Shown here: positions 3,001-24,379 of the stretch, piece after piece
Layout of the letters: every line of letters starts with the position of its first letter
Numbering within the stretch: position 1 is the first letter of the stretch
DNA from: Magnetococcales bacterium
GTDB lineage: Bacteria > Pseudomonadota > Magnetococcia > Magnetococcales > JADFWU01
Direction: 5' to 3'
Length of the DNA: 62,411 nt
Assembly (NCBI GenBank): GCA_015234045.1
Contig: JADFWU010000017.1
Location: 1-62,411, forward strand
Notes under the pieces: generated by a model
What the model saw: only the letters and a program-made list of their open reading frames with translations
Databases searched by the model: none
What the model was told of the DNA's origin: nothing
Made by a program: the position numbers and the translations under genes

Positions 3001-6000
3001 TGGATGGTCATTGGGTCGCTTCGGGTGAAAATGGTCAAGGAGGTGTCCTGATTGTTCAGAGTTTGAATTACATCTCCAGTGATGACCATTGGAAATTGGC
3101 TGATCAATCCTATGGCGTGCATACCTCATCAGGTGGCCATGGAATTCAGGTGGGTGATCCATCACGTGTATTTGTCAATGTGCACGGTGAACAACTTCAG
3201 CAGGTACGTGGACGAATTACCGATTTGGGCACAGGAGACCCGCTTGTCAATGCTGTTGTTTCTACGGCTTGGGACAAAGCCTTCACCAATGAGAATGGTG
3301 AATACGCGCTTACGCTAAAACCCAGCATCTATGATATCACTGTCGCACATCGTGGTTATCGGCCTCGGACGGTTTCCGGTGTTTCCATCCCTGCGAATAC
3401 GCCTTATGAACTGAGTTTGGCACTGACAAAACCGGTTCCATTGAATATCAGTACGGTTACGCTTCCTGAAGCGGAAGTGGATGTGTCCTGGAATGAAATG
3501 GTTCGGGTTGAAGGTGGTTATGGTCCTTGGAAATGGAAGGTGGCTGATGGTGCATTGCCGACTGGTATTACCTTAAATCCACAGACAGGTGTTCTCTCAG
3601 GCGTTCCGGCTCTGTCTGGCGATGCACAATTCTCTATTGGTGTGACAGATGCCAAGGGTATTTATGCTGAACGTGAGTTTGTTCTTGAAGTGCTCGAGCA
3701 GTTCATTGTTATCACGCGCAGTTTGCCACGTGGTACGCTCAACGATCCCTATGGTGCCTGGATTGAGGTGTTTGGCGGTCGGCAGCCGTACCGATTCTTC
3801 CATACCGGTGGAACATTGCCGGATGGCATGACCTTGGAAACAAACGGTTGGCTCAGTGGTGTGCCGACTTCCATTAATCCAACCCAGTTCAGCGTAGAGA
3901 TCCGTGATGGTTCTGATCGGGTATTGTCGCTTACCATTGGCTTTGAAGTGGATAATCCGCTCCTCATTGAGACCGAACGGTTGGAAGATGGTGTGGTGGG
4001 TCAACAATACAGTCAAACACTGCAAGGCAGCGGTGGTTTTGGTGTCCATCGTTGGGAGTTGCACTCGGGTATTCTGCCTCAGGGGCTTACGCTGAATCGG
4101 TTGACCGGTATTCTTGCCGGTACACCGTTGGAATCAGTGCATAGAACCATCATTATTGCACTGACTGATAGTGCGGGCCGGGTTGAGTATGCCGATTATC
4201 TGTTGCGTGTTCAGCCAGCGCTGAATGTGGCAACCAGCAATATGCCCAACGCGTATAAAGGGCGCTATTATGAAGAGCCAGTGCCCATCACTGGTGGTAT
4301 TGCGCCGTTAAACTTCCAATATAGTGGTCAACTGCCGGTTGGGCTTTATCTGGATCCGGACACCGGTATCATCTCCGGTGTGCCGCGTATCTCCGGTGTG
4401 ACCAATCTGAATTTGACTGTGATCGACAGTGCTTTGCCTGTTCCGCGTTCCATCACGGCGTTGGTTGGCTTGCGTGTCACAGAAAATATGGCGATTGTTA
4501 CGCCAGCCCTGATGCCGAATGGTCGTAAAGATATTCTCTATCCAGGGATCACACTCAAAGCAGAGGGCGGTACAGCGCCTTATGGTTGGCGGCATATCAG
4601 TGGCAGTATGCCAGCGGGTGTTGCTCTGAATGTTGAGAGCGGCACAATCAGTGGTTTGCCGGAAACCGCCGGCATGTATACGTTCACCATTGAAGCGACT
4701 GATGCTCAGAATATCACCGTCGCCAAGACGTTTTTTCTGGATGTTTCCAAACAGTTAAGCATGGTTACCACAGCGATTCCTGATGGTGGTTTGGATCTGG
4801 CCTATGCGTTCGCATTCAACGCCCAGGGCGGCAAACCGCCTTATGCCTGGCGTCTGAGTGGATCCATGCCGGATGGTTTGAGCCTGGATGGTCAGACTGG
4901 TGTTATGTCGGGTGCGCCCAGCAAGTTGGGCAACTACAATTTTTCCATATTGGTTTCCGACAGTGATGAACCGGCTTTGACAGTACAGAAATCCTTCAGC
5001 ATGTCCATTGTTGATGAGCCATTTATTGTGACACCTGATCTGTTGCCGGGTCGGCAGGGTGTGCCGTATTCAACCGTGATTCAAGCGCGTTTGGGTATGG
5101 CACCGTATTCGTGGATCTTGAAAGCGGGTAGTCTGCCTCCGGGACTATCGCTGAAAAACTCAGCCACCAGTGCGTTGATCGAAGGTACACCTACTGCGAC
5201 CGGAACCTACAGCTTTACTGTTAGTGTGACCGATTCGGCCTTACCGTCTCATACTGCTGATAAAGTATTGACCATTCAGATATACGATAGCGTTGTCTTG
5301 AATAGTCTCAGTCTGGATCATGTCCGCCGTGGTGTACCAACAGCGCAGACACTCAGCGTTACCGGTGGTATTCCGCCGCTGAATTTCAGTGTTATTGAAG
5401 GTAACCTGCCAATCGGTATTACCTTAAACAGTGGTTCTGGTCATCTTTCAGGAAGCACGGATGTTCAGGCGGATACCCGCTATAACTTCACCGTTCGTGT
5501 GGTTGATTCCGGCGAGCCATCCAGCTGGGATGAAATGAGCTATCACGTTGATGTTGTAGATTTCCTCAACATCACACCACAGGTGGTTCCTGAAGGAACG
5601 CAGTGGGAAGAGTATGCTGTAACCTTTGAGCATGAAGGCGGATCTCCGCCCTATGTCTGGAGTGTGGTTGAAGGCGTGTTGCCTCAAGGTCTCACACTGA
5701 ACAGTAACACCGGCTTGCTCGACGGAACCTTTGAATCCTGTGGTGTTCACAACTTCAGCATCGGGTTGCGTGACAGCTCCAACGCACCACTGACAGTGCG
5801 TCAGATGTATAATCTGAATATCAATTGTTCGGTGGTTATTGAACATGTTGAACTGCCCAATAAAAATCTTGAAGCCGGTTCGTTGACCGAATGGTTTGCC
5901 AGAGCGAACCAAGAATATGGTCAGATCACGGAATATCGTTGGGACTTTGGCAATGGGGATGTCATCTCAGGCTATCGGGTTCAACATGCCTTTGATACCC

Positions 6001-8378
6001 CAGGACGACACAAGGTTACCTTGACCGTGGAAGCCAGTGATGGTCAAACAACATCCCAAAGCTTTTTAGTGGATATTGGTTTGGCCAAAGGGCGTATTGA
6101 AGGTGTTGTGCATGGTTTGGAGCATGACAGTTCAGCCATTGTTGAGGCACGTTCGGATAAGCTGTTGCATACGGCATCAGTGAAGCTCGTTGGGGGTGTG
6201 GATAACTCGGCACGGAGTTTCATTATCAAAGATCTTCCTGTCTCTGATGATTACCGAATCTACATCCGTTCAGACAATTATCCTGATGGATACTGGGTTG
6301 GTGAGGCGCATGGTGTGGCTGTTCAACCGGGTGCATGGCGACAATCAACTGAGATTGATATTTCCGATGGCCTGTTTGATGGCATTGAACTTGTGCTTAA
6401 TCGTGGCTTCAGCTTGGTTGTCGCGCTGACCAATGTTCAGCCAGGCGATGTGTTTGATATTTCAGCCTGGTCAGAAAAAAGCAGTGGATTCCAGACATTA
6501 CGCCGTGAGAGCACGGGAAGTGTATTGATCGGAACTTTGCATCCTCTGCCTGAGGCGGATGATTATTTGATCAAAGTCGAGTCTGTTGGAAGCAGTTACC
6601 GCAGCGGTTATTTTGTCGGTCCAATGGAGCCGCCGGGTCCAAGCCACAATGCAGAAGTGATTGCATTGGACAAGGATAAGGGTGTCACAATGACAATGGC
6701 TTCTGGTCTGTTCATTTCAGGGCGTATAACGGATTTGCCACCACTGCCAGCCCAGGTTTCCATTTGGTCTGAAAGTACGCGACAGGTTGGTTTCACGGCT
6801 GTGGATGGTGACGGAATCTATGTGATTGATGGTCTGACATCGGTGTCTGATTATGAAGTGTGTCTGGATATTGAGGGTTGGGCCACTGGATGCTACGGCG
6901 GAGAATCGAGTGAGGGTTTGGTTTCTCGTCCGTTGGCACAATGGGTTGATCTGACTCAGGGCAGTGCGACGGCCATTGATTTGATCGTGCCTTCAGGGCG
7001 CAGTGTCAGTGGTGAGGTGCTTGGTCTGAATACCGGTGACATGGCTTTGGTGGAAGTGAGTTCCAATACAGCTGGAATTATGGATAGTGTCATCGTCGAT
7101 GCCGATGGAACATGGCGCATGTTTGGTTTGCCAGCTGTGAATGACCTGATGGTTAAGGTTTCAGCTGAAGGATATACAACATCGCAGGAGGTTAAAGTGG
7201 ATCTGTCTCAGATGGATCAGGAAGCAGTCAATTTTGAACTGTTTCAGGGGGCTGGTGTTTCTGGAACAATCATTGGTGTTGAGCCGGGTAAGCGTGTGAC
7301 TGTTATTGCCCAATCACGCAATGGTTCAGAGCTTGTTCAAACGACGGCCACCGGTCGTCAGGGAGATACAGCGGATTATACGTTGACTGGTCTATCCGCA
7401 CAGGATGTCTATCGTATCTCTTTGGAAACGGATGAAGGGACTTTTTACTATAGCTATACCGGTACGGTGACAAGTAAATCAGAGGCTGAGTTTGTCTTTC
7501 TCAGTACGGGAGTGATGGCCGAAAATATGGACTTCAATGTCACCGGGCAGAATGTCTTCCATACTATTAGCGGTATGATCACTGGGCTTGGTGCTCAGAA
7601 TGATGACCAGGTAGTGACAATCACTGTGTTCTCTCTCTCTTCCGAGAGTGGTGGTTATGGTACGACCATGCGCAGTGGTGATGGTCCGTTTAAAGTGACT
7701 GGTCTACCAGCCGATGCGTATTACATTACCGTTACCTCACAGGATATGGTGGATTTGACCTATAGGGATGGCGTATTCAGTCCAGCTCTATCACATGGTA
7801 CACCGATGGAATTGACTGAATCCGTGTCGGATCTGACTATTGAGATGATCAGCGGTATGACTATTTCCGGTTCTGTGTTGTTGGATGGTGTGCCGGTCTC
7901 TGGAGCCAATGTTACGGCGTGGGATGATGTGAATCAGGTTGGTGGCAATGCTGTGGTACGTAGTGGTGGTTTGTTCCGGGTAACTGGATTGCCAGCGGGT
8001 GACTATACATTGTCTGTCAAAGAGTCCTTTGGACAGGTGACCACGGAGACACCCATAACAGTAACAAATGCCTCTGTGACAGATATTACGTTGAATTTGA
8101 ATCAGCCAGCGGGTCAGATCAGCGGTATCGTACAAGGTGAAGGAGCGGATGGTGCTTTGGTAATTGTGAGTGATATGAATAACAACTTCCTGGTTGCCAG
8201 TGTGGCTTCCGCGAGTGGTGCGTTCACTGTAACCGGCCTGGAGCCGGGACAAAACTATCATTTGGCAGTTGATGTCGATGGTGACTACAGTTCACCTGAA
8301 GGTCAGTTGGATGTCTATGTTGATGAAATACTGTCTGATGTTATCATCCCAGTTACAACAAGCATGACAGCTCAATAG
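3..8378 (+). CDS. Giant multidomain surface/secreted protein, 5'-truncated by the window edge
   Basis: The reading frame is open from the first bases and begins inside an RCC1 repeat, so the true start and any signal peptide lie upstream. At least 2,791 residues are visible. In order: RCC1-type repeats (about 1-165, with recurring WGRN.GQLG motifs), a DUF11/CARDB-like beta domain (about 177-290), Asp-rich thrombospondin-3/EF-hand-like repeats (about 296-720), a Gly-rich stretch (about 833-976), a carboxypeptidase-regulatory-like domain (about 1060-1145), nine Ig-like He_PIG modules of about 90 residues (1145-1950, each with an LP.G..L....G..SG.P core), a PKD domain (about 1967-2025, YRWDFGNGD), then tandem carboxypeptidase-regulatory-like modules to the end. 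The domain types imply an extracellular, calcium-stabilised adhesin or matrix protein; this is inference. No LPxTG, PEP-CTERM or type IX sorting tail is visible at the C-terminus. Confidence 0.9.
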   Translation: MLTPVQVTGLSGVAQISAGKSHSLARRSNGKVFAWGRNNRGQLGIGSFNSKANPTPAEVVNISNITIIHGGNDHTMALKNDGTVYTWGRNDAGQLGDGTTDRSHTPVELTGLPEVAELAGDDGHSLALLADGTLLSWGRNNSGQLGTGSTTDAPILAPVQVVAENGTDPLRLEYFADLVVSQSNNPVAVIQYNEVVYTVVVSNQGSDTAVNIALTDTFPSGGIFLGVTTSQGSCSEVDNTLACDLNSLEPGASASLSLTFRMGGAGTVNNVVTVSNAVTELNPADNTSTQVTEIYPDTDQDGTVDPLDNCPNLDNPLQEDLDNDNIGDICDDDDDGDGVNDSLDLFPRDGSEWVDTDGDGTGDNGDDDDDNDGVKDSVDAFPLDPTETLDTDGDTIGNNTDNDDDGDGVDDSEDQFPLDGTEWIDTDGDGIGDNSDDDADNDGVKDEDDAFPLDNTESVDTDLDGIGNNTDEDDDGDTFPDTVDVFPLDGTEWLDSDLDGIGNNADLDDDNDGTLDVDDDLPLDPTETKDTDQDGIGNNIDPDDDGDTFNDAIDRFPLDGTEWLDTDNDGVGDNGDEDDDNDGMPDLYELDNGLDPLNILDGNRDADQDGLSNFAEYELGTRADTVDTDGDVMSDFFEVQRELNPLDPDDGRLDPDEDGLTHSEEYAHGTALYNHDTDGDGMPDEYEVRFSLNPLSGDDALQDPDGDGIVNQEEFWLDGNPRDYANVGRVLESAHWSENQVLGPKGDAPHAGVYEFLDLTIGDGIEVANTGTSQLVLKVHGTLRVGANAAIRVRNHFDPESPSVFVDEITQDTMHLLGKNVDGRTFRVYPGLYGKGGNGGDGTTGAEGGMGTGGAGGGGGGSGGFGGGQGGAGGLGNGGGLGGVDFDDAGFGRDGGLGQANGLASGIAGIGSCSGNVEFCGCAGGNGGANGGDGQPGQLVSGLAAPYDSCNAVLGAGGVGGGGGGYGGGVLTIIADRIIYDTDNPPHFLVSGQRGGRAFVDGHWVASGENGQGGVLIVQSLNYISSDDHWKLADQSYGVHTSSGGHGIQVGDPSRVFVNVHGEQLQQVRGRITDLGTGDPLVNAVVSTAWDKAFTNENGEYALTLKPSIYDITVAHRGYRPRTVSGVSIPANTPYELSLALTKPVPLNISTVTLPEAEVDVSWNEMVRVEGGYGPWKWKVADGALPTGITLNPQTGVLSGVPALSGDAQFSIGVTDAKGIYAEREFVLEVLEQFIVITRSLPRGTLNDPYGAWIEVFGGRQPYRFFHTGGTLPDGMTLETNGWLSGVPTSINPTQFSVEIRDGSDRVLSLTIGFEVDNPLLIETERLEDGVVGQQYSQTLQGSGGFGVHRWELHSGILPQGLTLNRLTGILAGTPLESVHRTIIIALTDSAGRVEYADYLLRVQPALNVATSNMPNAYKGRYYEEPVPITGGIAPLNFQYSGQLPVGLYLDPDTGIISGVPRISGVTNLNLTVIDSALPVPRSITALVGLRVTENMAIVTPALMPNGRKDILYPGITLKAEGGTAPYGWRHISGSMPAGVALNVESGTISGLPETAGMYTFTIEATDAQNITVAKTFFLDVSKQLSMVTTAIPDGGLDLAYAFAFNAQGGKPPYAWRLSGSMPDGLSLDGQTGVMSGAPSKLGNYNFSILVSDSDEPALTVQKSFSMSIVDEPFIVTPDLLPGRQGVPYSTVIQARLGMAPYSWILKAGSLPPGLSLKNSATSALIEGTPTATGTYSFTVSVTDSALPSHTADKVLTIQIYDSVVLNSLSLDHVRRGVPTAQTLSVTGGIPPLNFSVIEGNLPIGITLNSGSGHLSGSTDVQADTRYNFTVRVVDSGEPSSWDEMSYHVDVVDFLNITPQVVPEGTQWEEYAVTFEHEGGSPPYVWSVVEGVLPQGLTLNSNTGLLDGTFESCGVHNFSIGLRDSSNAPLTVRQMYNLNINCSVVIEHVELPNKNLEAGSLTEWFARANQEYGQITEYRWDFGNGDVISGYRVQHAFDTPGRHKVTLTVEASDGQTTSQSFLVDIGLAKGRIEGVVHGLEHDSSAIVEARSDKLLHTASVKLVGGVDNSARSFIIKDLPVSDDYRIYIRSDNYPDGYWVGEAHGVAVQPGAWRQSTEIDISDGLFDGIELVLNRGFSLVVALTNVQPGDVFDISAWSEKSSGFQTLRRESTGSVLIGTLHPLPEADDYLIKVESVGSSYRSGYFVGPMEPPGPSHNAEVIALDKDKGVTMTMASGLFISGRITDLPPLPAQVSIWSESTRQVGFTAVDGDGIYVIDGLTSVSDYEVCLDIEGWATGCYGGESSEGLVSRPLAQWVDLTQGSATAIDLIVPSGRSVSGEVLGLNTGDMALVEVSSNTAGIMDSVIVDADGTWRMFGLPAVNDLMVKVSAEGYTTSQEVKVDLSQMDQEAVNFELFQGAGVSGTIIGVEPGKRVTVIAQSRNGSELVQTTATGRQGDTADYTLTGLSAQDVYRISLETDEGTFYYSYTGTVTSKSEAEFVFLSTGVMAENMDFNVTGQNVFHTISGMITGLGAQNDDQVVTITVFSLSSESGGYGTTMRSGDGPFKVTGLPADAYYITVTSQDMVDLTYRDGVFSPALSHGTPMELTESVSDLTIEMISGMTISGSVLLDGVPVSGANVTAWDDVNQVGGNAVVRSGGLFRVTGLPAGDYTLSVKESFGQVTTETPITVTNASVTDITLNLNQPAGQISGIVQGEGADGALVIVSDMNNNFLVASVASASGAFTVTGLEPGQNYHLAVDVDGDYSSPEGQLDVYVDEILSDVIIPVTTSMTAQ
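1036..1760 (+). repeat. 105-bp coding tandem repeat (35-aa calcium-type repeats, seven copies)
   Basis: Within the giant gene, seven consecutive 35-residue units each carry a DTDGDGIGDN-like Asp/Asn loop followed by a FPLD...E stretch. The residues closing the unit alternate between G(T/S)EW and (P/N)TE(T/S), which gives a higher-order period of 70 residues (210 bp). Asp-rich repeats of this type bind calcium in thrombospondin-3-like proteins. Confidence 0.85.
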
Positions 8379-11715: not shown

Positions 11716-14700
11716 CTACAGCAGTACATGATCAATGGCACCATTCCTGGCCTGGTTAACAAACTGTTTCTGCCAGTTGGCACCCAACAGTGCTTTAGCC
11801 ATCTCAACAGCCAGAAACTCTGCTTTAATACCCGAAGAGTAACGATAACGGGACAAACCTTGTACACAAGAGGGGCAGGTGGTCAACATTCTGGTTTTCC
11901 GTTTGCGAAAAGCCTTTGAGGACTGATCGGCATCAGGATTTAAAGAGCGTTTGCCCAGGGCGATCTCTTCTTCTTTTCGATAGCGGGCTTGAGTGGCAAT
12001 ATCGGGCCTGTTAACCGCAAAGGTGCCCGCTTCAGAACAACAACGATCCGACAGAAGAACGTGACCCTGTTCCAGATTGAGTAGTTTCTCTGCCACTTCG
12101 GTGGGGTTGTGCTGTTTTGTAGGGGTGTGACAGGGATCATGGAATAGATAACGCCGGTCCTTTTGCTCAGGCAGTGTTAAGCCTTTTTCCATGAGAAATT
12201 CATGAATATCCATGATGCGGCAACCTGGGAATATTGCCTCAAAATCATATTTAACCAACTGATTCATACAGGTTCCGCAAGAGACCAAAACTGTCTTAAT
12301 CTTGAGAAAATCCAACGCTTTGGCCATGCGATACAATAATACACGGTTTCCGGTTACGATTTTTTGTGCGGTATCCAAATCACCAGATGCTTTTTGAGGA
12401 AAACCGCAGCATAGATAACCAGGCGGAAGCACGGTGGGCACTTTGATATGGTGTAGAAGCGCCATAACCGCCAGTGAAATATCACTGTAGAGTCGCTCAC
12501 AACCGCAACCGGGAAAATAGAATGCAGCATCTACTGGACCCTGTTCACTGGTGTTTTTGGTGATTTCAGGATCACGCAACAGCGGAATGATCTGATTATC
12601 TTCAATATTCAGATAGCTCCGGGATGTGGTGCCGGGTAGGTGACGACTCAAGGGGCGCTTGAGGAGGTGGATGATTTCATCTTTTTTTGGGGGGCGGCCA
12701 CAGGTTTGTGGCGGCAATGATTTTTTACCCAAGATGCCGAGCGTTCTGGCAACATTGTGACCGGTTCGCTGTGCGGCATAACCGGGTTTGAGCAGCCAGT
12801 TACGCATCCCACGAATGGCGCGGGGGTCGGTTTTGTTGAGAAACGACATCGCCATTTTTCCGCCAGCGCTGGAAATGCGTTCATTACGCTTTTTCAGAAT
12901 CTCACGCATGCGGATGGTGACTTTGCCAAAGTCGATATCCACAGGGCAGGGCACCACGCACCGATGACAGACGGTACAGTGATCCGCAACATCGTTCATT
13001 TCGTCAAAGTGGTGATGAGAAATGCCGCGCTTAGTCTGCTCTTCGTAGAGAAACGCCTCAATCATCAAACCAAGGCCGAGAATTTTGTTACGTGGTGAGT
13101 AAAGTAGGGTGGCGCGTGGCACATGGGTGGTGCAGACCGGTTTGCACTTCCCGCAGCGCAGACAGTTACGCACCATGTCATTGAGATCACCCAAGGCGCT
13201 GTCACGCAGAATCAATGCCTCTTGCTGGACCAGACGTAACGAAGGAGTGTATGCCTGTTCCAGATTGGAATCGGGCATCAACTTGCCGGGGTTGAAAGCG
13301 TTGTTGGGATCGACCTTGCGTTTATATTCAGCAAACTTTGTTATCTTTTCCGCATCAAGGAAGCCGATCTTGGTGAGACCGATACCATGCTCACCGGAGA
13401 TCTCGCCGCCCAGTTCCAAAGCCAGTGCCATTACCTTTGTTACGATAATCTCTGCTTTGTGCAGCATATCGTAATCATTGGAATTGACAGGAATATTGGT
13501 GTGAATATTGCCGTCACCTGCATGCATGTGCAGGGCTATGAACAGACGACTTGGACGGATTTGCTGATGGATTTCAATCAGCTTGTTTTGGACGGCTTCC
13601 CAGCGTTTGCCGGAGAATAGATTATTTAGCTTGGGAATGACCGCTTCTCTAAAGGAGATGCGAAACGCCCGGCGTAATAACAGATCAAGGATGCGTTCAT
13701 CCGGTTCAAAGGCAACGCCAGCCAGGGCAGGGTGATCGCTGAAAGAACTGGCTGGATTATCCAATCCTTGCAAAATTGAGTGCCATTTATTGTGAAGATC
13801 ACTGACCCAGTTTACACCCTGTTCCACTTTTGCCGTGATGACACCGATCTCTTCTGATTCTCTGTTAGGCAGGATGGCTTGAACAGCGTCTGGTGTCAGG
13901 AAATTTTGAATTGCATTCAGAATATCCAATTTATTCTGAATGGAGTGCTCAATATTGAGTCGCTCGATACCGACATTGTACTCGGCCAACCGCTCCAACG
14001 GGATAACAACATCTTCGTTGACCTTGAAGGCGTTGGTATGGGCAGCAATGGCTGCGGTACGACTGCGGTCAGACCAAAAACGCCTTCTGCCAGCGGCATC
14101 AGTTGCGATGAACGCCTCACCATCTCTGGCTTGGGTGCTGTATTGGACATGGGCAGCGGCTTCTGCAACGGCTTCGGCATCATCACCGATAATATCGGCC
14201 AGTAGAACCATTTTGGGTGCGTTGCCGCGATTGGATTTGGTGCTGTACTTGATCGCTTTAATATAGCGATCATCCAGATGTTCCAGTCCAGCACAGCCTA
14301 CTTTGGGGTGTTGGTCCAGGTAGTCTTTGGTCTCGACAATGGCGGGAACCGCTTTGGAAAGGTCGTGACCGAAAAACTCCATACACACGGTGTAGGTATA
14401 TTTCGGTTTTGGATGGGTGACAAATATGGCACTGGTTACCAAGCCATCACACCCTTCTTTTTGCACACCGGGAAGGCCGCCGAGAAATTTATCGGTGACA
14501 TCTTTTCCCAATCCGGGTTTGCGGATGGCATGGGCGGGAATGGTCAGGATTTCTGGTTCACCTACCGGTGTTTTGCCATCTACTTCATAACGGGTAATGC
14601 TGAAAATCGCCTCTGGAATCGAATGAATTTTGCCCAGATTGTGATTCATCCGCTGGACTTCTATCACATGACCATCCGGCGACACCATGCGCCAGGAGAA

Positions 14701-15591
14701 CAGATTGTCCAGCGAAGTGCCCCACATCACCGCCTTTTTGCCACCGGCATTCATGGCTACATTGCCGCCGATGGTGGAGGCGTTTTGAGAGGTCGGGTCC
14801 ACGGCAAAGATCATCTCTGATTCAGCCGCTTTTTCAGATACTTTTCGGGTGACTGCTCCGGCACCAGCCCGGATGGTTGGGATGGGTTGGTCATGGCCGG
14901 GAATATTGATCTTTTCAACAGGATCAATCGTGTCCAGTTTTTCGGTATTGATCACAACGGTCTCATCGGAGAGCGGAATGCCGCCGCCGGTGTAGCCGGT
15001 TCCGCCACCACGCGGAATGATGGAGAGTCCCAGGTCGATACAGGCACGCACCAATGGCGCGACTTCATTCTCCGTATCAGGAAACAGCACGACCAATGGA
15101 TAATGAACACGCCAGTCAGTGGCATCAGTGGCATGAGAAACGCGAGATAGCGGATCAAAACCAATATTATCAACACGGGTCAAACTGGACAGGCGGGCCA
15201 GGAGGTCTTCTCTGACCCTTTTTTGACGGATAAAACCACTGGCGAAATTTTCTACCGCTTTATCCACAAAGGTCAACAGCTCTGTGACCAGTTCTTCGGC
15301 ACCTTGACCAATACGGGACCTGATCTGATCAACCCGCTCCTTAAGAGTATGAACCAACGCATGTTGGCGGGTGTCATCGTTGAAGAGATCATCCTGAATC
15401 ATTGGGTTGCGTGACACAATCCACATGTCGCCCAGGATTTCAAACAGCATATGCGCTGAACGGCCCGATTTCCGATGCGCGCGCAGCTCTTGCAGAATGG
15501 CCCAAGCCCTTTTTCCCAGAAAACGGATGACTACTTCCCGGTCTGAAAAGGATGTGTAGTTATAGGGAATTTCCCGAATGCGTTTGGACAC
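11716..15591 (-). CDS. DUF3683 / GlcD-type FAD oxidase / GlcF-type Fe-S fusion oxidoreductase
   Basis: A 1,291-residue fusion. Residues about 1-130 match the DUF3683 N-terminal domain. An FAD-binding type 4 (PCMH) domain follows (about 145-370, with PRGGGTGYTGGG), then the FAD-oxidase C-terminal domain with HAGDGNIHTN and GEHGIG. Next is a 2x[4Fe-4S] ferredoxin-like domain (CLRCGKCKPVC and CTVCHRCVVPCP), then two CCG cysteine-rich domains of the GlcF/HdrB type (FPGCGC...CCGFP and HDPCH...CCSEAG). The protein joins in one chain what glycolate or D-lactate dehydrogenases carry on separate subunits, so it is probably a membrane-associated 2-hydroxyacid dehydrogenase feeding the quinone pool; the substrate is not determined. 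Start is GTG with an AGAAGAGA-like ribosome site. It appears monocistronic. Confidence 0.88.
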   Translation of the reverse strand: MSKRIREIPYNYTSFSDREVVIRFLGKRAWAILQELRAHRKSGRSAHMLFEILGDMWIVSRNPMIQDDLFNDDTRQHALVHTLKERVDQIRSRIGQGAEELVTELLTFVDKAVENFASGFIRQKRVREDLLARLSSLTRVDNIGFDPLSRVSHATDATDWRVHYPLVVLFPDTENEVAPLVRACIDLGLSIIPRGGGTGYTGGGIPLSDETVVINTEKLDTIDPVEKINIPGHDQPIPTIRAGAGAVTRKVSEKAAESEMIFAVDPTSQNASTIGGNVAMNAGGKKAVMWGTSLDNLFSWRMVSPDGHVIEVQRMNHNLGKIHSIPEAIFSITRYEVDGKTPVGEPEILTIPAHAIRKPGLGKDVTDKFLGGLPGVQKEGCDGLVTSAIFVTHPKPKYTYTVCMEFFGHDLSKAVPAIVETKDYLDQHPKVGCAGLEHLDDRYIKAIKYSTKSNRGNAPKMVLLADIIGDDAEAVAEAAAHVQYSTQARDGEAFIATDAAGRRRFWSDRSRTAAIAAHTNAFKVNEDVVIPLERLAEYNVGIERLNIEHSIQNKLDILNAIQNFLTPDAVQAILPNRESEEIGVITAKVEQGVNWVSDLHNKWHSILQGLDNPASSFSDHPALAGVAFEPDERILDLLLRRAFRISFREAVIPKLNNLFSGKRWEAVQNKLIEIHQQIRPSRLFIALHMHAGDGNIHTNIPVNSNDYDMLHKAEIIVTKVMALALELGGEISGEHGIGLTKIGFLDAEKITKFAEYKRKVDPNNAFNPGKLMPDSNLEQAYTPSLRLVQQEALILRDSALGDLNDMVRNCLRCGKCKPVCTTHVPRATLLYSPRNKILGLGLMIEAFLYEEQTKRGISHHHFDEMNDVADHCTVCHRCVVPCPVDIDFGKVTIRMREILKKRNERISSAGGKMAMSFLNKTDPRAIRGMRNWLLKPGYAAQRTGHNVARTLGILGKKSLPPQTCGRPPKKDEIIHLLKRPLSRHLPGTTSRSYLNIEDNQIIPLLRDPEITKNTSEQGPVDAAFYFPGCGCERLYSDISLAVMALLHHIKVPTVLPPGYLCCGFPQKASGDLDTAQKIVTGNRVLLYRMAKALDFLKIKTVLVSCGTCMNQLVKYDFEAIFPGCRIMDIHEFLMEKGLTLPEQKDRRYLFHDPCHTPTKQHNPTEVAEKLLNLEQGHVLLSDRCCSEAGTFAVNRPDIATQARYRKEEEIALGKRSLNPDADQSSKAFRKRKTRMLTTCPSCVQGLSRYRYSSGIKAEFLAVEMAKALLGANWQKQFVNQARNGAIDHVLL

Positions 15592-15706: not shown

Positions 15707-16975
15707 TCAAGGGTTGATACGTTCCAGTTTACTCTCAATCCGCTTCAAACGCCGCTGAAATCGTTCATTTGATGGCTGTTGAGCAAGCATGAGCGTTGTA
15801 TATTGCCGGGCTTGTTGAAGATCATGAGACTGATGTTCATGATATTTTGCCAAACGTTCCATAGCCTCCAAATGGTTGCTTTGCGCTAGATGTTGCCAGA
15901 TTCTTATAGCCTGTTGCCACTGTTGTTGACGACGAAAATGTGCGGCCAGTTCCATCAATCCATTGGCATCCAGATGGCTTTGGCAGTTTTTTAGCAATCG
16001 AATAGCTAAATCTGTTTTGCCATGACGGCAATAGGCCCGTGCAATGGATACTGGATCACCAGTCTGGCTATTTGGCACTGGTGCGCTAGAAATCTTAAAA
16101 ACCTCAACCAAAGCGGAGAGCAAGGCCGCCAAGGTTAATAAATCATCCCGATTATGTGAGAATACGCGAGGTAGTTGCCGACTTTGGCCAAAGCGTAGCC
16201 ACCATTGCCACACCTCAGGCACTTGAGCGCCGGGCAGGTCGTCAGTACGGAAAAAGCCTAAGAGCCGATTCTCAGCCGTTTGAAGACGGCAATTGTCCCA
16301 CCGGTTGGCAAAGGCTACGCGGGTTGGATAGAGCAGATCAAGATGGGCAAGCGTTTCGGCAATCGGGTGAAGACCGTTTAGGCGCAGGCGGGTCTGAAGG
16401 AGCGGAAGATCAAAGCGTTTTCCGTTGTAACTCACCAGAACAGTGTCCGGTTCAATCAATGCCAGAATTTTTTCAAGATACGCCGTTTCCGCACTGGGAC
16501 GGGTCATCATCAATTGAATCAGTTCAAACCGTCCTTGACGAAAGCGACCCGCACCAAATAGAAAAGCGTGTGTACCGACACCACCGGCCAGACCGGATGT
16601 TTCAGTATCCACAAAGAGATAGTTTTCACGCTCCAGTGTTTGGCCTTGGCTGATTGGTTCAGGTATTGACGTTGTTTGAATCGGTTGAAGGGTCTGCTTG
16701 CCGTGGAGATAGGGAACAGGCCAGCTGTGGATACTTTGAATCACGCCATCATCAATGACAGTACCGTTGAGGATGTGAGCCAGTTCATGGTCTGTCAGGT
16801 TTCGTTTCTGTTGCTGTGGCACGTTTGACTGTGGTCTCAAGCGTTGAATGCGTTCGCTGATTGAGGTGGCTTGAGAAGGTTTTTCCAAAACGTTTTTTGT
16901 GGTGGGCGTGCTCTGTGTACCAGACTGATTACGTAGGGCGTTCAAGCGAGATTTGAGATCAACGAGTGATTTCAT
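15707..16975 (-). CDS. mrfB: MrfB/YprB-like DEDDh exonuclease with C-terminal TPR-like repeats
   Basis: A 422-residue protein with an RNase H-like exonuclease domain (about 115-295) and helical TPR-like repeats after about 310. The DEDDh catalytic set is intact: D123 and E125 in DTETSG, D189 in NGKRFDLP, H274 and D278 in SHNRDD. Domain order and length match Bacillus subtilis MrfB (YprB), the exonuclease partner of the MrfA helicase in UvrA-independent excision of mitomycin C damage. A matching MrfA-like helicase lies 2.8 kb upstream in the same transcription unit. The ATG overlaps the stop of the sensor kinase gene (ATGA), so translation is probably coupled. Family assignment is firm; the repair role is inferred from the B. 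subtilis pair. Confidence 0.82.
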   Translation of the reverse strand: MKSLVDLKSRLNALRNQSGTQSTPTTKNVLEKPSQATSISERIQRLRPQSNVPQQQKRNLTDHELAHILNGTVIDDGVIQSIHSWPVPYLHGKQTLQPIQTTSIPEPISQGQTLERENYLFVDTETSGLAGGVGTHAFLFGAGRFRQGRFELIQLMMTRPSAETAYLEKILALIEPDTVLVSYNGKRFDLPLLQTRLRLNGLHPIAETLAHLDLLYPTRVAFANRWDNCRLQTAENRLLGFFRTDDLPGAQVPEVWQWWLRFGQSRQLPRVFSHNRDDLLTLAALLSALVEVFKISSAPVPNSQTGDPVSIARAYCRHGKTDLAIRLLKNCQSHLDANGLMELAAHFRRQQQWQQAIRIWQHLAQSNHLEAMERLAKYHEHQSHDLQQARQYTTLMLAQQPSNERFQRRLKRIESKLERINP

Positions 16976-19683
16976 GGCTGGGCAATCTGATCAATTAACT
17001 CAAGCAAGCGACTTTTTTTGATGGGTTTGGACAGATAATAACTGCATCCCGCTTCAAATGCTTCTTCTGAGGCTTCTTTCATGGCATGGGCGGTGAGTGC
17101 CACAATGGGAACAGGTATTCGGTTGCTCTCTATTTCCCAATTACGGATTGTTTTGGTTGCTGTCAAGCCATCCATCACTGGCATTTGCAGATCCATCAAT
17201 ACCAGATCTGGTAGCTGTTCTTTATAACGATCAACAGCTTGTTGACCATCTTCAGCGATAATCAGGCTGTGTTGGGTTTTCTTCATATAAGCCTGGACGA
17301 GGAATCGATTATCTTCGGCATCATCCACCAACAGAATATTGAGTCTTTTCAGATCGATTTGACTGGAAGGTGAAATTATTTGCAAGCCTGATTGAGGCTG
17401 ACTATTGGACGTTTCATGTTGCACTGTGCTGTTCGGGGTTGTGGCGGGCAGGATAGCGGTAAAATAGAATAGGCTGCCCTGACCGGGTTGACTCTCTACC
17501 CCCATGGTGCCACCCATCAGATTTACCAGACTCTGACAGATGGTCAATCCCAGTCCAGTACCGCCATACTCACGGGTGGTGGAATGATCGGCTTGAGTGA
17601 AAGGACGAAAAATCGTTTGCTGTTTTTCCGGGGCAATGCCGATACCACTATCCCGCACCGAGAAGCGGATAAGATCTGCCTTGTCTGGCTCAACAGCCAA
17701 ATGGATCGTGCCTGATGGTGTGAACTTTATGGCGTTGTTCATCAGGTTGAGTACTATCTGTCTCAAGCGATTGGCATCACCGGAAACATGATTGGGTAAA
17801 TCGGGATGGCAGAAAGTGGTCAGTGATAGATTTTTCTCTTTGATGGGAAATACGAATAAGTTTGTTATCTCTTCAATGGTATCAGTCAAATTAAAAGGAA
17901 CATGTTCAAAGTCCAGTTGATTGGCTTCAATTTTCGAAAGATCAAGAATATCGTTGATCAGGGATTGAAGTGATTCACTGGCACTTTTGAGAATAGTGAC
18001 ATATTTGGACTGTTCAACGGTGAGTTGTGTTTCAAGTAGGAGATCACCCATGCCGAGAATGGAGTTGATTGGTGTTCGGATTTCATGGCTCATAGTGGCC
18101 AAAAAGGCACTTTTTGCTTTGTTGGCCGCTTCGGCTTGCAGTTTTTCCTGAGCCAGACGTTCTGACCTTTTCCGGCTGCTTAGATCTTCAACAGTAGACC
18201 AGATGAAACGCTCGCCATCCTGCTCAATAATCAGACCAGACAGCAGAACCGGAACATGGTGACCATCCTTATGAATATATACTTTTTCGTAGGGTCCGTA
18301 CCGACCATTTCGTTCCAGTTGAAGCAGTTGTTCAGACTCCTGGTCAGCGTAACTTATTGGTGTCAGTTCCCAGTAGGTCAACTGCTTTACCGAGTCGGTA
18401 TCGTAGCCAATAATCGCTGCATAGGCTGGATTAACATCCACCAGTTGGCCATCCATGCGGCAGAGTGCCAGCCCGATAACCGAATGTTCGAACAGCATGC
18501 GATTATAGGATTCACTGTGGCGCAGGGCTTTTTCAACAGCTTCGCGCTCAGTGATTTCCATGGTAAGTTTTTGGTTGATGGTTTGAAGTTCAGTTGTGCG
18601 TTCAATCACCCGTTTTTCCAACGTTTCATTGAACGCTTGTAAGCGCGTTTCATTCTGTTTACGTTCGGTAATATCCCGAAGGAACAGGGTGGTGATGGTG
18701 TCATTTTCAGTCGAAATTCGAGAAGCGGTAACTTCTAAATATCGCGGTGAGCCATCGGCGTGACTGGTTATAAACTCATGGCGGTTCTCTGCTTGGACCC
18801 GATCAGACTGGAGCGTGTCCAACAACGATTGCCAGCGTTTTCCCTCTTCCGAAGAGCGTACCAACGGTGTTTTGATCAGTTGCAGATGGGTGATTGATTT
18901 TGCTGTGATACCAAAGGTGTGTTCAATGGTTGGATTGGCATCAATGATATAGCCGCGACTATCGAGAATAAGGATAGTGTCCAGCGCAGTATCCATCATT
19001 GCCCGGAGACGGGATTCACTGGTGTGAATCTGTTTTTCAATGATCTCTCGGCGTTTCAGGCTAATGCTTTCCCGGCGTAGGGCCATGGCAATGATGAAAA
19101 CCAAAGCCGAGGCGATAATCAACAATGCCAGAGAGGCCATCCATATCAGATTTTCCAGTTGCTCTTTTTGTCGTGTTATATCCCAATAAATTTCAAAAGC
19201 ACCGAGAAATTGTTTGTCACTCATGATCGGGATGTAGGTCTCAATAACATCTTGACCTGTGATAACGCCTTCCATGGTTTTATGTGATTTTGAAACGCTC
19301 TTCGAATAGATTCTTCCTTTGGCAACCTGATCATGGAAGTAGGCATTTGTATTGAGAACACCGATCTCATTGACATCAGAAGAGTAAACAATCTCACCTT
19401 CCGGTGTGAATACACGAATCTTATACAGAAAAAAATCAGTACGAATCAGCTGAATTTCATCATAAAGTTTTGGAGTGAGTGTGATTGGGCAGTCAGTGCA
19501 GTGCGTTTCATCATGGAGGTAAGAGGCAAGATGGTTGCCCAGCAGGTGAGCTTGATTCTGTTTATCTTGTTCAAGAAAGGCCATGAAGGCCGGATGGATA
19601 AAGAAAAATGAGGTCAACGGGAATGTGATGGTAACCAAAATGGCACCGATAAACGTGTTCCTCAGCAATTTATTTTGGAACAT
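16972..19683 (-). CDS. Hybrid sensor histidine kinase (sensor-PAS-PAS-HisKA-HATPase-REC)
   Basis: A 903-residue membrane kinase. TM1 is at about 12-34, a periplasmic sensory domain at 35-175, TM2 at about 176-200. Two PAS domains follow (about 222-345 and 387-500) linked by coiled coil, then HisKA (H533 in MSHEIRTP), a HATPase (GTGLGL) and a C-terminal receiver with phosphoacceptor D831 in LMDLQMP. No HPt or output domain is attached. The periplasmic part has an HCTDC motif (C62, C65), a possible metal or disulfide site. The gene sits between mrfA-like and mrfB-like genes: 59 nt after the helicase and overlapping the nuclease start by 4 nt. Its receiver is very similar to that of the hybrid kinase at 56101-58596, implying paralogy. 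The signal is unknown. Confidence 0.9.
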
Positions 19684-19742
19684 GATACACGCTTCCCCTT
19701 TTTTGCAAACCCAGCTGTCATTGTGAAGGGAATTTGTGTTGA

Positions 19743-22103
19743 TTAAAAGAGAGAAAGCAATTCAAGTGCTGATTTTTTTGGTGATTCGTCCGGGCGCTCA
19801 TCAGATCTGAGTATGGGGCCAACACAGGCAGGACAGCCAAAACGGCAGGAACAGCCTTCAATCAGGGCATGAGCACTTTGAATTAATATATTTCTTTGTT
19901 CGAACAAAGGTTCAGATAGTCCAATGCCACCGGGAATATTGTCATACAGAAATAGAGTGGGTTGGAAACGGCGTGTTTGAGTATCAAACATATCAGGGTC
20001 CATCTGATTGCCGTCACGATCACGCATTGTGCCCCGTTCTCGGGCGTTGACTGAGGCGAACCAACCGGCATCTTGATCGCCAACCGCACGTCCCAAATCA
20101 CTCATTTCAGACATTGTGTGCATGGCGGCAACGGTATGTAGGCAATAGGCTGCACCCAGAAATCCGTCCAAAGCGTGCCAACGATTGGAGAGTCGTTCTG
20201 CCAGTGCTTCTGCATCCGCACGCCACCATACAGCCGTGGTGTGCATCTCTTGATCAGGCAGATTGATGGCACCAAACCCGATGTTCTCATGGGTATGAAA
20301 ACGGATTTTCTTGAAACCGGAGATGCGCCGGACCAGATGCACTTCACCATGGCCGGTCAAACTTGATTTTTTTTGATCGATATCAAAGTCATCAAGTATT
20401 TTCAATTTGGTGTAGTCAATGGCATCGGTATAATAATCGGCTTGAGTGCGGCGTACGAAGGCTTTTCTTCCTTCCCAATCCAGTCTTTCTACTTGATAAG
20501 GTTGGGCATGCACCATGTAGATCGCTTGTTCATAGAGTGTCATTGCAGCGCTGGCGAAGTCGGTTTCAGCGATGATTTTTTGACCACCATCGGTGATATC
20601 CACCACGACAAAATTACCATCCGCTACCGAACGCAGTGAGACCGCATTGGCTGGATAACTGTCATCAATCCAGTGCCAGCGCTGGCGGTCCAGGTGTACC
20701 ACGCCTTCTTCTGCAAGGTAGTGCAACAATTCTTCAGGATCCACAGTGCCAAACAGCGAACCCTGAATAAACGGCAGTTCAAAGGCGGCACAGCGGATGT
20801 GATCCAAAAGAATCAACAAATGGTCCGGCGCAATGCGGGCATGTTCTGGTGATTGCCCCATGAAAAAATCCGGGTTTTGCACGATATATTGATCCAAAGG
20901 CTGAGAGGAGCCGATCAACACGCCTAAAGAGGTGCGATTGCGCCGGCCAGCGCGTCCCAATCTTTGCCATGTCCCAGCAATTGTGCCGGGATAGCCATTG
21001 AGCAGGCAGATATCCAATGCACCGATATCCACACCCAGCTCCAGCGCCGATGTGGTGACCACACCATCTACAGCGCCAGCACGCAGTGCTTTTTCAATTT
21101 TGCGGCGCTCACTGGGCAGATAGCCGCCGCGATAGGCGGAAATTCGGGATGGTTTGCGTGGATCTTTATCAAATACCTCTTTGAGATATTTGGTAATCAC
21201 CTCCACCATCAATCGCGTACGGGTAAAGATGATGGTGCTTAATCCCGCTTCAATAGCGCGACGGGCGATGCGGGTTGTTTGTGAACGGGCAGAGGCCCGG
21301 ATACCGAGATCCGGGTTGATTACCGGAGGATTCCACAATAACAGATGGCGCTCACCTTGTGGCGCACCGGATTGCGTAATGGCATGCACAGGCTGACCGA
21401 TCAGCTGATGGGCCAGCTGTTCCGGGTTGGCAATGGTGGCCGAACAGAAAATAAATACCGGGTCACTGTTATAAAATCGACAGATACGCTGCAACCGTCG
21501 AATTACATTGGCCATATGAGCACCAAATACACCCCGGTAGATGTGCATCTCATCAATGACCACATGGGTGAGACTCTCAAAAAACTGCGCCCATTTGGTG
21601 TGGTGGGGCAAGATGCCCTGATGGAGCATATCCGGGTTGCTGACGATGATATCACCTTTGACGCGCACCGCTTTTCGGGCATCCGCTGGAGTATCACCAT
21701 CGAAGGTGTGGGCGCGGATGTTGAGATCACCCAGACGACTCAGCGCTAATAATTCAGATACCTGATCCTGTGAAAGTGCTTTGGTAGGGAAGAGATAGAG
21801 CGCTTTGGAACGATTGTGCAGTGCATCTTGAATAACGGGCAGATTGTAACAGAGGGTTTTTCCCGAGGCGGTAGGCGTGGCGATGACACAGTTTTTCTTA
21901 TTGCGAATCAGTGACCACGCTTCGCCCTGGTGGCTGTAGAGTTGGTTCATGCCACGGGCTTGAAGCAGTTTGATAAGTCGTGCATCCATATCACTGGGAT
22001 AATCCACAAACGCACCATCTTCGGCGGGAAGAGAGACATGACCGGTGATCAGATTGCGATTGCGGGATTGAAGTGCTGTTGCCAGCTGTTTGGGATTCAT
22101 CAC
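19743..22103 (-). CDS. mrfA: MrfA/YprA-like DEAD/DEAH-box helicase with DUF1998 domain
   Basis: A 786-residue superfamily 2 helicase. Visible motifs are Walker A (TPTASGKT), motif II (VIDEMH), motif III (SATIANP) and motif VI (QRLGRAGRR). The C-terminal DUF1998 region ends in a zinc-binding cysteine cluster, CSCRFGCPAC (CxCx3Cx2C). This is the architecture of B. subtilis MrfA (YprA), a 3'-5' helicase that works with the MrfB exonuclease in nucleotide excision independent of UvrABC. The start is GTG at 22103 with GGAG 11 nt upstream; an ATG follows immediately at 22100. It begins 8 nt after the L,D-transpeptidase stop, so the two are almost certainly cotranscribed. Specific function in this organism is inferred. 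Confidence 0.85.
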   Translation of the reverse strand: MMNPKQLATALQSRNRNLITGHVSLPAEDGAFVDYPSDMDARLIKLLQARGMNQLYSHQGEAWSLIRNKKNCVIATPTASGKTLCYNLPVIQDALHNRSKALYLFPTKALSQDQVSELLALSRLGDLNIRAHTFDGDTPADARKAVRVKGDIIVSNPDMLHQGILPHHTKWAQFFESLTHVVIDEMHIYRGVFGAHMANVIRRLQRICRFYNSDPVFIFCSATIANPEQLAHQLIGQPVHAITQSGAPQGERHLLLWNPPVINPDLGIRASARSQTTRIARRAIEAGLSTIIFTRTRLMVEVITKYLKEVFDKDPRKPSRISAYRGGYLPSERRKIEKALRAGAVDGVVTTSALELGVDIGALDICLLNGYPGTIAGTWQRLGRAGRRNRTSLGVLIGSSQPLDQYIVQNPDFFMGQSPEHARIAPDHLLILLDHIRCAAFELPFIQGSLFGTVDPEELLHYLAEEGVVHLDRQRWHWIDDSYPANAVSLRSVADGNFVVVDITDGGQKIIAETDFASAAMTLYEQAIYMVHAQPYQVERLDWEGRKAFVRRTQADYYTDAIDYTKLKILDDFDIDQKKSSLTGHGEVHLVRRISGFKKIRFHTHENIGFGAINLPDQEMHTTAVWWRADAEALAERLSNRWHALDGFLGAAYCLHTVAAMHTMSEMSDLGRAVGDQDAGWFASVNARERGTMRDRDGNQMDPDMFDTQTRRFQPTLFLYDNIPGGIGLSEPLFEQRNILIQSAHALIEGCSCRFGCPACVGPILRSDERPDESPKKSALELLSLF

Positions 22104-22111
22104 CGTGGCGA

Positions 22112-22651
22112 TTACTCCAGACTGGGCGGATTGGATAGGGATGCGTGGATCTCAATGGGTGTGCCATCGACAACCGACTGCCAGATCTCAGCCATTTCGG
22201 CATTGGTCACCGCAATACAGCCATCGGTCCAGTCACCGGTCGGTAGAATACCTGGCAGCCAGCCAAGTCCGTTGGGCGCACCATGAATCATGATTGCGCC
22301 ACCAGGAGAGACCCCTTTAGCCTCGGCGGTAGCTTTGTCCTGTGTATTGGGATAGGAGATGTGTAGCGAGCGGAAAAAACGGCTGTTAGGATTGCGCCAG
22401 TCCAGAGTGTAAGTCCCTTCCGGCGTTCTTGAATCGCCTTCCTGAACCTTATGGTTTTCTGGGTTTTTTCCCATGCCCATACTATAGTGACGAACAGCTT
22501 TACCCTGATGCATGAGATAGAGTTGGCGGGCTTGTTTATCAACAATCACACGATCCACCGCGTCAGGCGGATTGGCAAGCCAAAAAGGCAGGTGACGGTC
22601 GGCACCGTAAATCGTGCCTGCTACCAGCGTCAGAATAAGCAGGATAGACAT
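22112..22651 (-). CDS. L,D-transpeptidase (YkuD family), exported
   Basis: A 179-residue protein with an N-terminal hydrophobic signal sequence (about 1-17, cleavage probably after IYGA). The YkuD catalytic region has MIHGAPN and the active-site motif TDGCIAVTN, with the nucleophilic cysteine in GC. Such enzymes form 3-3 cross-links in peptidoglycan or attach proteins to it; some small members trim or modify murein. It starts 12 nt after the stop of the upstream lipoprotein gene and ends 8 nt before the helicase, so it is part of a tight operon. Which L,D-transpeptidase reaction it performs is not shown by sequence. Confidence 0.88.
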   Translation of the reverse strand: MSILLILTLVAGTIYGADRHLPFWLANPPDAVDRVIVDKQARQLYLMHQGKAVRHYSMGMGKNPENHKVQEGDSRTPEGTYTLDWRNPNSRFFRSLHISYPNTQDKATAEAKGVSPGGAIMIHGAPNGLGWLPGILPTGDWTDGCIAVTNAEMAEIWQSVVDGTPIEIHASLSNPPSLE

Positions 22652-22663
22652 ACGCTGTACGCC

Positions 22664-24379
22664 TTATTTCTTGATAGTATCGTTAATAACTGTCCAGCCT
22701 TGTTCTAAAACCAGCCCTTCGGCAATATTGGCATTCCGAATGCGTTGCATATCTGCTTTGAGTTCTGCTGATTGTTTGCCATAGCGATCAATAAACGCCT
22801 GAGCTTCCTTAGGTTCGCCATTAAACTGAATTGATAGAATTTTACGACCCAACCGGGTGATGGCATTGATCATTACCGGCAGATCGACAAAATAGAGTCC
22901 ATCCTGTGTGCGTAACAGTGCGCCCTGTTCGCGGAAGTAGTTGAAGCGAATTAAGGCGGCTTGACCATGGGCGCTTTCGGTACCAAAACGCATGGTGCGA
23001 AACAGTGAGGCTGAACCGGTAATCAGTGCGTTTTCAAGGGTGATATCCAACAGCTTGCCCTGTTGGTTCAACCAATGTGCCATATAGAGGCCTACGGCAT
23101 CGGCTTTACTCTCTTCAAAGAGCAGATGTTTGGATTTCAGGCTGTTTTGAACGGTAGAGCCGTCTTGAGTTATCTTAACGCCTACACCGTGGGACAGTTC
23201 ATGAAGTAGCGTGTTGGTAAAGAATGCGGAGAAGCGCACTTGACCGCGTTGTTCTGGAACCAACATGACTTCGGTGATTGGGCGGAGCATATGGTTGAAT
23301 TTGGCACGCATCAAATTGACAAGTTGAATGCTGCGCGTACCGATGGTGCGTTGAATATCAATGTTGTTTGGTAGGTTGAATGCAATGGCTTTGGCACCGG
23401 CATTGGCTTGGCCGGTGAGGTAGACGGCATCAAAGGCTTCCAGACTGGCTTGAAAATCATTTTCCGGCCTCTGATTACTCAGGCCAGAGAGTGGTAAGGC
23501 AGTCTGAAGATCAGCCAAAAACGGCTCATAATGGCGCAGACGACTGCTCCAGAGTGTATTACGAATCAGAATATACGCTTGATGGGCTGTTTTTTGATTC
23601 AGCAGATAGTCGTCATAGCGCTCAATTGGACCAGCGACAAAATCCACCGCAGAAAGTGGCGAGGCAGCGGTTTCTTCTGAGCGGGGCAGCAGTGCCCAAG
23701 CCCGTTCAGCGGGTTCGTAATTATTATCCAGCAGAGCTTGAGCCAGTTTATTGAAGTAGTCTGCTTGTTCTTTGGACTGGGTCAGTTTGGCGGCTTTACG
23801 GAGATCTTCCGCTGCTTTTTGATGTTCTTTGCCAAAGGCATCACTGTAGAACCGGGCTTTGAAGCGGTTATCAGTGTCTTGGAGAACCAGTGAGTAAGGT
23901 GATTTCAATTGAGCATCGTTGATTATTGCTTTTTCCAAGGCGATTTTATCGACACCGACTGGGTAAAAACCAACACCGGGTGGGCGGGCAGAAAAGCCTG
24001 GTACCTGAGATTCTGAACTGAATTCATAACGATCCCATGGGCCATAGTTGATGGCCATCCATTTACGGGCAACAGGATCTCTGGTCTGATCAAGAATTGT
24101 ACGGCCATATTGACCGTGTAGCTGTTTCCAGAACACGGTATCCATTTGATCCGCGGCATCCATTAACAGCGTTAAAAGCGCTTTTTCCCAGGGTTTGAGT
24201 GCGTCAATACCTGTATTCAGTCGTATTGTGACCAATTTGTCGAGGCGTTTTTCCAGCGAATAGGCGGATGATTCGGTTGCTTTGGGTGCAACCGCTTGAC
24301 TACAGCCGTTTAATAGAACAGCCGCATTCAACAGAATGGCGGGAAGGAAAATCAGTAGATAAGGGCGTGAAAATTTCAT
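22664..24379 (-). CDS. M49-like zinc metallopeptidase lipoprotein
   Basis: A 571-residue lipoprotein precursor: signal peptide followed by lipobox LLNGC (Cys near 26). Near residue 391 it has HELSH, a standard HExxH zinc motif, followed about 30 residues later by EESKAD, whose first glutamates fit the third zinc ligand. This pair resembles bacterial proteins of the dipeptidyl-peptidase III (M49) clan, though classical DPP III has the longer HELLGH form. It should act in the periplasm, anchored to the inner or outer membrane (a serine follows the Cys, giving no clear inner-membrane retention signal). It is first in the short-spaced run of genes leading to the transpeptidase and helicase. Peptidase activity is inferred. 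Confidence 0.72.
   Translation of the reverse strand: MKFSRPYLLIFLPAILLNAAVLLNGCSQAVAPKATESSAYSLEKRLDKLVTIRLNTGIDALKPWEKALLTLLMDAADQMDTVFWKQLHGQYGRTILDQTRDPVARKWMAINYGPWDRYEFSSESQVPGFSARPPGVGFYPVGVDKIALEKAIINDAQLKSPYSLVLQDTDNRFKARFYSDAFGKEHQKAAEDLRKAAKLTQSKEQADYFNKLAQALLDNNYEPAERAWALLPRSEETAASPLSAVDFVAGPIERYDDYLLNQKTAHQAYILIRNTLWSSRLRHYEPFLADLQTALPLSGLSNQRPENDFQASLEAFDAVYLTGQANAGAKAIAFNLPNNIDIQRTIGTRSIQLVNLMRAKFNHMLRPITEVMLVPEQRGQVRFSAFFTNTLLHELSHGVGVKITQDGSTVQNSLKSKHLLFEESKADAVGLYMAHWLNQQGKLLDITLENALITGSASLFRTMRFGTESAHGQAALIRFNYFREQGALLRTQDGLYFVDLPVMINAITRLGRKILSIQFNGEPKEAQAFIDRYGKQSAELKADMQRIRNANIAEGLVLEQGWTVINDTIKK

Follow-up and report, generated by a model that had tools for sequence, protein, structure and literature searches.

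A gene for a hybrid sensor histidine kinase was found between the genes for a helicase and an exonuclease that resemble the MrfA-MrfB repair pair of Bacillus subtilis, in the genome of a Magnetococcales bacterium. This arrangement raises the question of whether the kinase ties DNA repair to a signal from the envelope, as the initial annotation had proposed, or whether an unrelated gene has entered a repair operon. The DNA analyzed (hereafter the window) is the whole 62,411-nt contig JADFWU010000017.1, which corresponds to contig 26 in a draft genome of 3.65 Mb. The explanation that we consider very probable is that an ordinary MrfAB pair has had a generic orphan hybrid kinase inserted into its operon in this lineage.

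Organization of the locus

The three open reading frames occupy positions 15707-22103 on the minus strand of the window and are transcribed in the order mrfA (19743-22103, 786 aa), kinase (16972-19683, 903 aa) and mrfB (15707-16975, 422 aa). A 59-nt spacer (19684-19742) separates mrfA from the kinase gene, and the stop codon of the latter overlaps the start of mrfB by 4 nt (ATGA, 16972-16975, also on the minus strand); the coordinates, the strand, the gap and the overlap had all been read correctly in the initial annotation. Upstream of mrfA and on the same strand, a gene for a YkuD L,D-transpeptidase-like protein (22112-22651; Pfam YkuD, E=5.7e-21) ends 8 nt before the mrfA start, and a gene for an M49-peptidase-like lipoprotein (22664-24379) ends 12 nt before the YkuD gene. 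Motif and hydropathy reading of this lipoprotein revealed a hydrophobic segment at the N-terminus and a HELSH motif, and its match to Pfam Peptidase_M49 was weak and below the cut-off. Both genes are probable members of the operon, i.e., the transcription unit likely reaches upstream of mrfA and is longer than had been described. Elsewhere in the window, positions 11716-15591 encode a 1291-residue fusion of an FAD-linked oxidase with an iron-sulphur protein (DUF3683 and DUF3400), and a 2791-residue open reading frame (3-8378) runs off the window start.

A Shine-Dalgarno-like sequence, AGGGGAAG, is present in the spacer ahead of the kinase ATG, and no such site was observed in the inspected sequence upstream of mrfB. 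When the spacer was scanned, no terminator-like site was detected, and the single promoter-like site there lies across the start codon of the kinase. Promoter-like sites were rarer in the locus than in shuffled sequences, and none above the chance level was found inside the locus; terminator and promoter scans of this type provide weak evidence. The kinase gene is probably co-transcribed with mrfA and mrfB. Furthermore, because the stop and start codons overlap and mrfB has no ribosome-binding site of its own, the translation of mrfB is probably coupled to that of the kinase.

Identity of the helicase and the exonuclease

The product of mrfA is an SF2 DNA helicase in which the DEAD, Helicase_C, WHD_HRQ1 (HRQ1-type winged helix) and MZB (DUF1998/MZB zinc domain) regions were each recognized above the Pfam cut-off. 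A PDB search matched it to B. subtilis YprA/MrfA (6znp) at E=5.7e-213, with an alignment over residues 14-630 and then again over the zinc cluster, which together span nearly the full length. The CxCx3Cx2C cluster on which the first assignment had been based corresponds to Cys 751/753/757/760 (codons 19824-19853). The YprA family comprises a repair branch, which is associated with MrfB, and a defence branch (DISARM, Dpd and Druantia). The helicase goes with the repair branch, since the match to YprA/MrfA is far stronger than those to the DrmA, DpdJ and DruE defence helicase models, and MrfB is present. These scores led us to reject an anti-phage role, and no further defence genes were found among the five genes scanned. 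The identification of MrfA, as judged from these matches, can be regarded as solid; its identity to relatives is 61-65%. In the MrfA tree the deep branches had too little resolution to tell vertical descent of mrfAB from transfer within the order. A metagenome record titled Klebsiella pneumoniae (L152) also encodes an MrfA, 62% identical to that of the window; this title is probably misassigned.

The mrfB product matched Pfam RNase_H_2 at E=2.7e-37 and the solved core of B. subtilis MrfB (PDB 8un9) at E=4.3e-24. All five DEDDh residues are kept (D123, E125, D189, H274 and D278, from the alignment and the motifs), and they are the counterparts of the catalytic residues D107, E109, D172, H258 and D262 of the B. 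subtilis enzyme (PMC11194089). The initial annotation had described a DEDDh exonuclease with TPR-like repeats, of which the nuclease part stands; the repeats were detected weakly, as residues 316-416 of the C-terminal tail weakly match a TPR-containing family and no Pfam TPR was above the threshold. To judge from the sequences, then, MrfA and MrfB of the window are a genuine, ordinary MrfAB repair pair. By orthology, MrfA would act as a 3′-5′ DNA helicase that opens the DNA around a lesion (bulky or cross-link), as in B. subtilis, and MrfB as a 3′-5′ DEDDh exonuclease that degrades the DNA opened by MrfA. The published B. subtilis pathway is said to repair mitomycin C damage without UvrABC. 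The initial annotation repeated this description, which is apt for B. subtilis; the genome analyzed here does encode UvrA and UvrC, so that MrfAB would work alongside the canonical pathway.

The kinase interrupts a strongly conserved gene order

In 77 pooled Pseudomonadota loci (duplicates removed, both genes detected by BLAST), mrfB lies directly after mrfA in 76, and the exception is the window, where immediate adjacency fails because the kinase gene is interposed. The distance from the MrfA stop to the approximate MrfB start ranged from -57 to +463 nt in the 76 loci, against 2,768 nt in the window. MrfB was detected in 75 of the best 80 MrfA loci from the GTDB contigs, each time directly after MrfA, and in the remaining five the sequence ends before MrfB could appear. 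Within the order, mrfB immediately follows mrfA in five genomes (G005, G019, G022, G027 and G033), and none of these carries a kinase gene between the two. Adjacency is nevertheless the usual and not a strictly defining property of the pair, given that two genomes of one genus (G010 and G023) carry mrfA and mrfB at separate loci (L068, L069, L070 and L071); the mrfB of G023 has beside it, on the opposite strand, a gene for another hybrid kinase of 917 residues. When 398 genomes of the phylum were analyzed, MrfA was found in 16 and MrfB in the same 16 and in one further genome, where it lies at a contig edge. This near-perfect co-occurrence in the sampled Pseudomonadota supports a joint function of the two proteins, even where their genes are separated.

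The conservation of the helicase-kinase-exonuclease order, proposed initially as a check, was then not observed: the order was absent in 150 near relatives, in the 398 phylum genomes and in the best 80 GTDB MrfA loci, and neither a kinase nor any other full gene was found between mrfA and mrfB in the other loci checked. The initial annotation had named an insertion unique to this strain as one result that would refute its proposal, and this is what was obtained: within the collections, which include no second genome of this family, the insertion is unique to this genome and may be specific to the strain, the genus or the family. Since the pair stays together in nearly all related genomes and none of those examined has a kinase at this position, the data argue for a one-lineage insertion rather than for a conserved link between repair and signalling. 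In the literature library searched, no paper joined mrfA, mrfB and a histidine kinase.

The surroundings of mrfAB are otherwise fluid in the order. A dinB/Pol IV-type (impB/mucB/samB) gene is located directly upstream of mrfA in G027 (L063:10753-14298) and G022 (L064:8658-12235), so that translesion synthesis is paired with MrfAB in these genomes. A FIST sensory gene overlaps or abuts mrfA from upstream in G033 (L065:8222-11838) and G019 (L066:6318-9997), and this FIST-mrfA-mrfB unit was found in one family of the order. The kinase is one of several different genes now adjoining mrfAB, and the sole one found between the two. Given the FIST gene in two genomes of the order, the presence of signalling genes close to mrfAB may be more than a matter of chance, which counts against a purely generic insertion.

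The kinase and its sensor module

The description of the 903-residue protein as a hybrid kinase was borne out. Its reading frame is intact and encodes two PAS domains, HisKA, HATPase_c and a receiver (Pfam), and the phosphotransfer residues H533 (HisKA) and D831 (receiver) and the motifs are intact; the kinase is complete and probably active. Its core is most similar to generic hybrid kinases (45-53% identity). Hydropathy predicts a first transmembrane segment at residues ~10-33, a periplasmic sensor of ~140 residues (~34-175) and a second segment at ~176-207. Weak dCache matches were obtained for the sensor fold in a profile search with its homologs, and the single-sequence structure model was of low confidence (pLDDT 52).

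The sensor module (residues 1-200; 19084-19683 of the window) belongs to a family that is spread across the order and has no Pfam family, and its nearest matches are 30-40% identical. The copies of this module are carried mostly by diguanylate cyclases (GGDEF; in G007, G011, G022 and on contig C21 of the same genome) and by other kinases (on contig C95 of the same genome and in G011). The sensor half is most similar to a protein of G011, a genome without an MrfA ortholog, and among the copies for which the gene neighbourhood was inspected, none was next to mrfAB. No gene for a partner response regulator adjoins the kinase. The genome encodes 100 HisKA domains, roughly one per 36 kb, and therefore it is not surprising that a kinase gene should adjoin mrfAB by chance. 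The codon usage of the kinase gene is as near the window average as that of its neighbours, and its GC content also fits theirs. Marks of insertion (flanking repeats, foreign codon usage, terminators) were sought, and nothing convincing was found.

Passenger or partner of the repair pair

An orphan hybrid kinase gene would thus have been inserted exactly between mrfA and mrfB in this lineage, where it would share their transcript and couple mrfB translation to its own. The kinase would most likely sense a periplasmic cue via its putative Cache-like domain and phosphorylate a response regulator encoded elsewhere; nothing that we could read in the sequence connects this output with repair. What speaks against such a generic passenger is the tidiness of the insertion, with both repair genes intact, a ribosome-binding-like site for the kinase and the ATGA overlap; a tidy insertion together with this overlap suggests selection maintaining co-expression.

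A refinement of, and compatible with, this explanation is that the kinase gained a ready operon and hitch-hikes on its expression, and that the sole effect on repair is an altered MrfA:MrfB ratio, the two genes now being 2.7 kb apart. We put this forward tentatively. The overlap of mrfB with the kinase stop, the missing Shine-Dalgarno-like site of mrfB and the failure to find a promoter better than chance in the locus are in its favor, but internal promoters of other types are possible.

The proposal of the initial annotation, a functional coupling in which an envelope or periplasmic signal adjusts repair, or in which the target of the kinase is a regulator of the operon, finds no support in these data and is unlikely. 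The tight spacing, the ATGA overlap, the likely operon shared with the YkuD and M49-like envelope genes, and the FIST gene that immediately precedes mrfAB in another family of the order (f13) are consistent with it. However, the arrangement occurs in 0 of the 76 other loci, relatives of the kinase are present without mrfAB, no partner response regulator adjoins it, and this genome is very rich in kinases. Its stronger form, in which a Magnetococcales family has a dedicated envelope-sensing kinase in the MrfAB operon and the overlap ties exonuclease synthesis to this kinase so that repair answers an envelope signal, would be more improbable still. Finally, an assembly artefact at the junction can practically be dismissed: the junctions are known from one genome, a draft of 117 contigs (93% complete, 1.8% contamination), but they coincide precisely with the ends of genes, including the overlap of 4 nt, the kinase gene fits its neighbours in codon usage and GC and has no convincing flanking repeats, and a chimera would also require that both mrfAB halves were rejoined in the correct order.

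Comparison with known systems

The locus resembles B. subtilis MrfA-MrfB (YprA-YprB) in the helicase architecture and zinc cluster, in the DEDDh exonuclease, whose TPR-like tail is weakly detected here, and in the strand and order of the genes, but it differs in the 2.7-kb hybrid kinase gene between them and in the envelope genes upstream. The gammaproteobacterial and other Magnetococcales mrfAB loci have MrfA proteins 61-68% identical to that of the window and mrfB downstream on the same strand; in those loci the two genes are directly adjacent, often overlapping, with no kinase between them. The members of the order-wide sensor family (for example, in G011:C61 and on contigs C21 and C95 of the same genome) share the N-terminal, weakly Cache-like membrane module, whereas their output domains and their neighbours are others. 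A link between the kinase and repair would be of importance only if sister lineages proved to have it too. These comparisons add a further Magnetococcales lineage to those known to have the MrfAB pair, and indicate that the adjacency of mrfA and mrfB, although strongly conserved, tolerates both insertion, as in this genome, and separation, as in G010 and G023.
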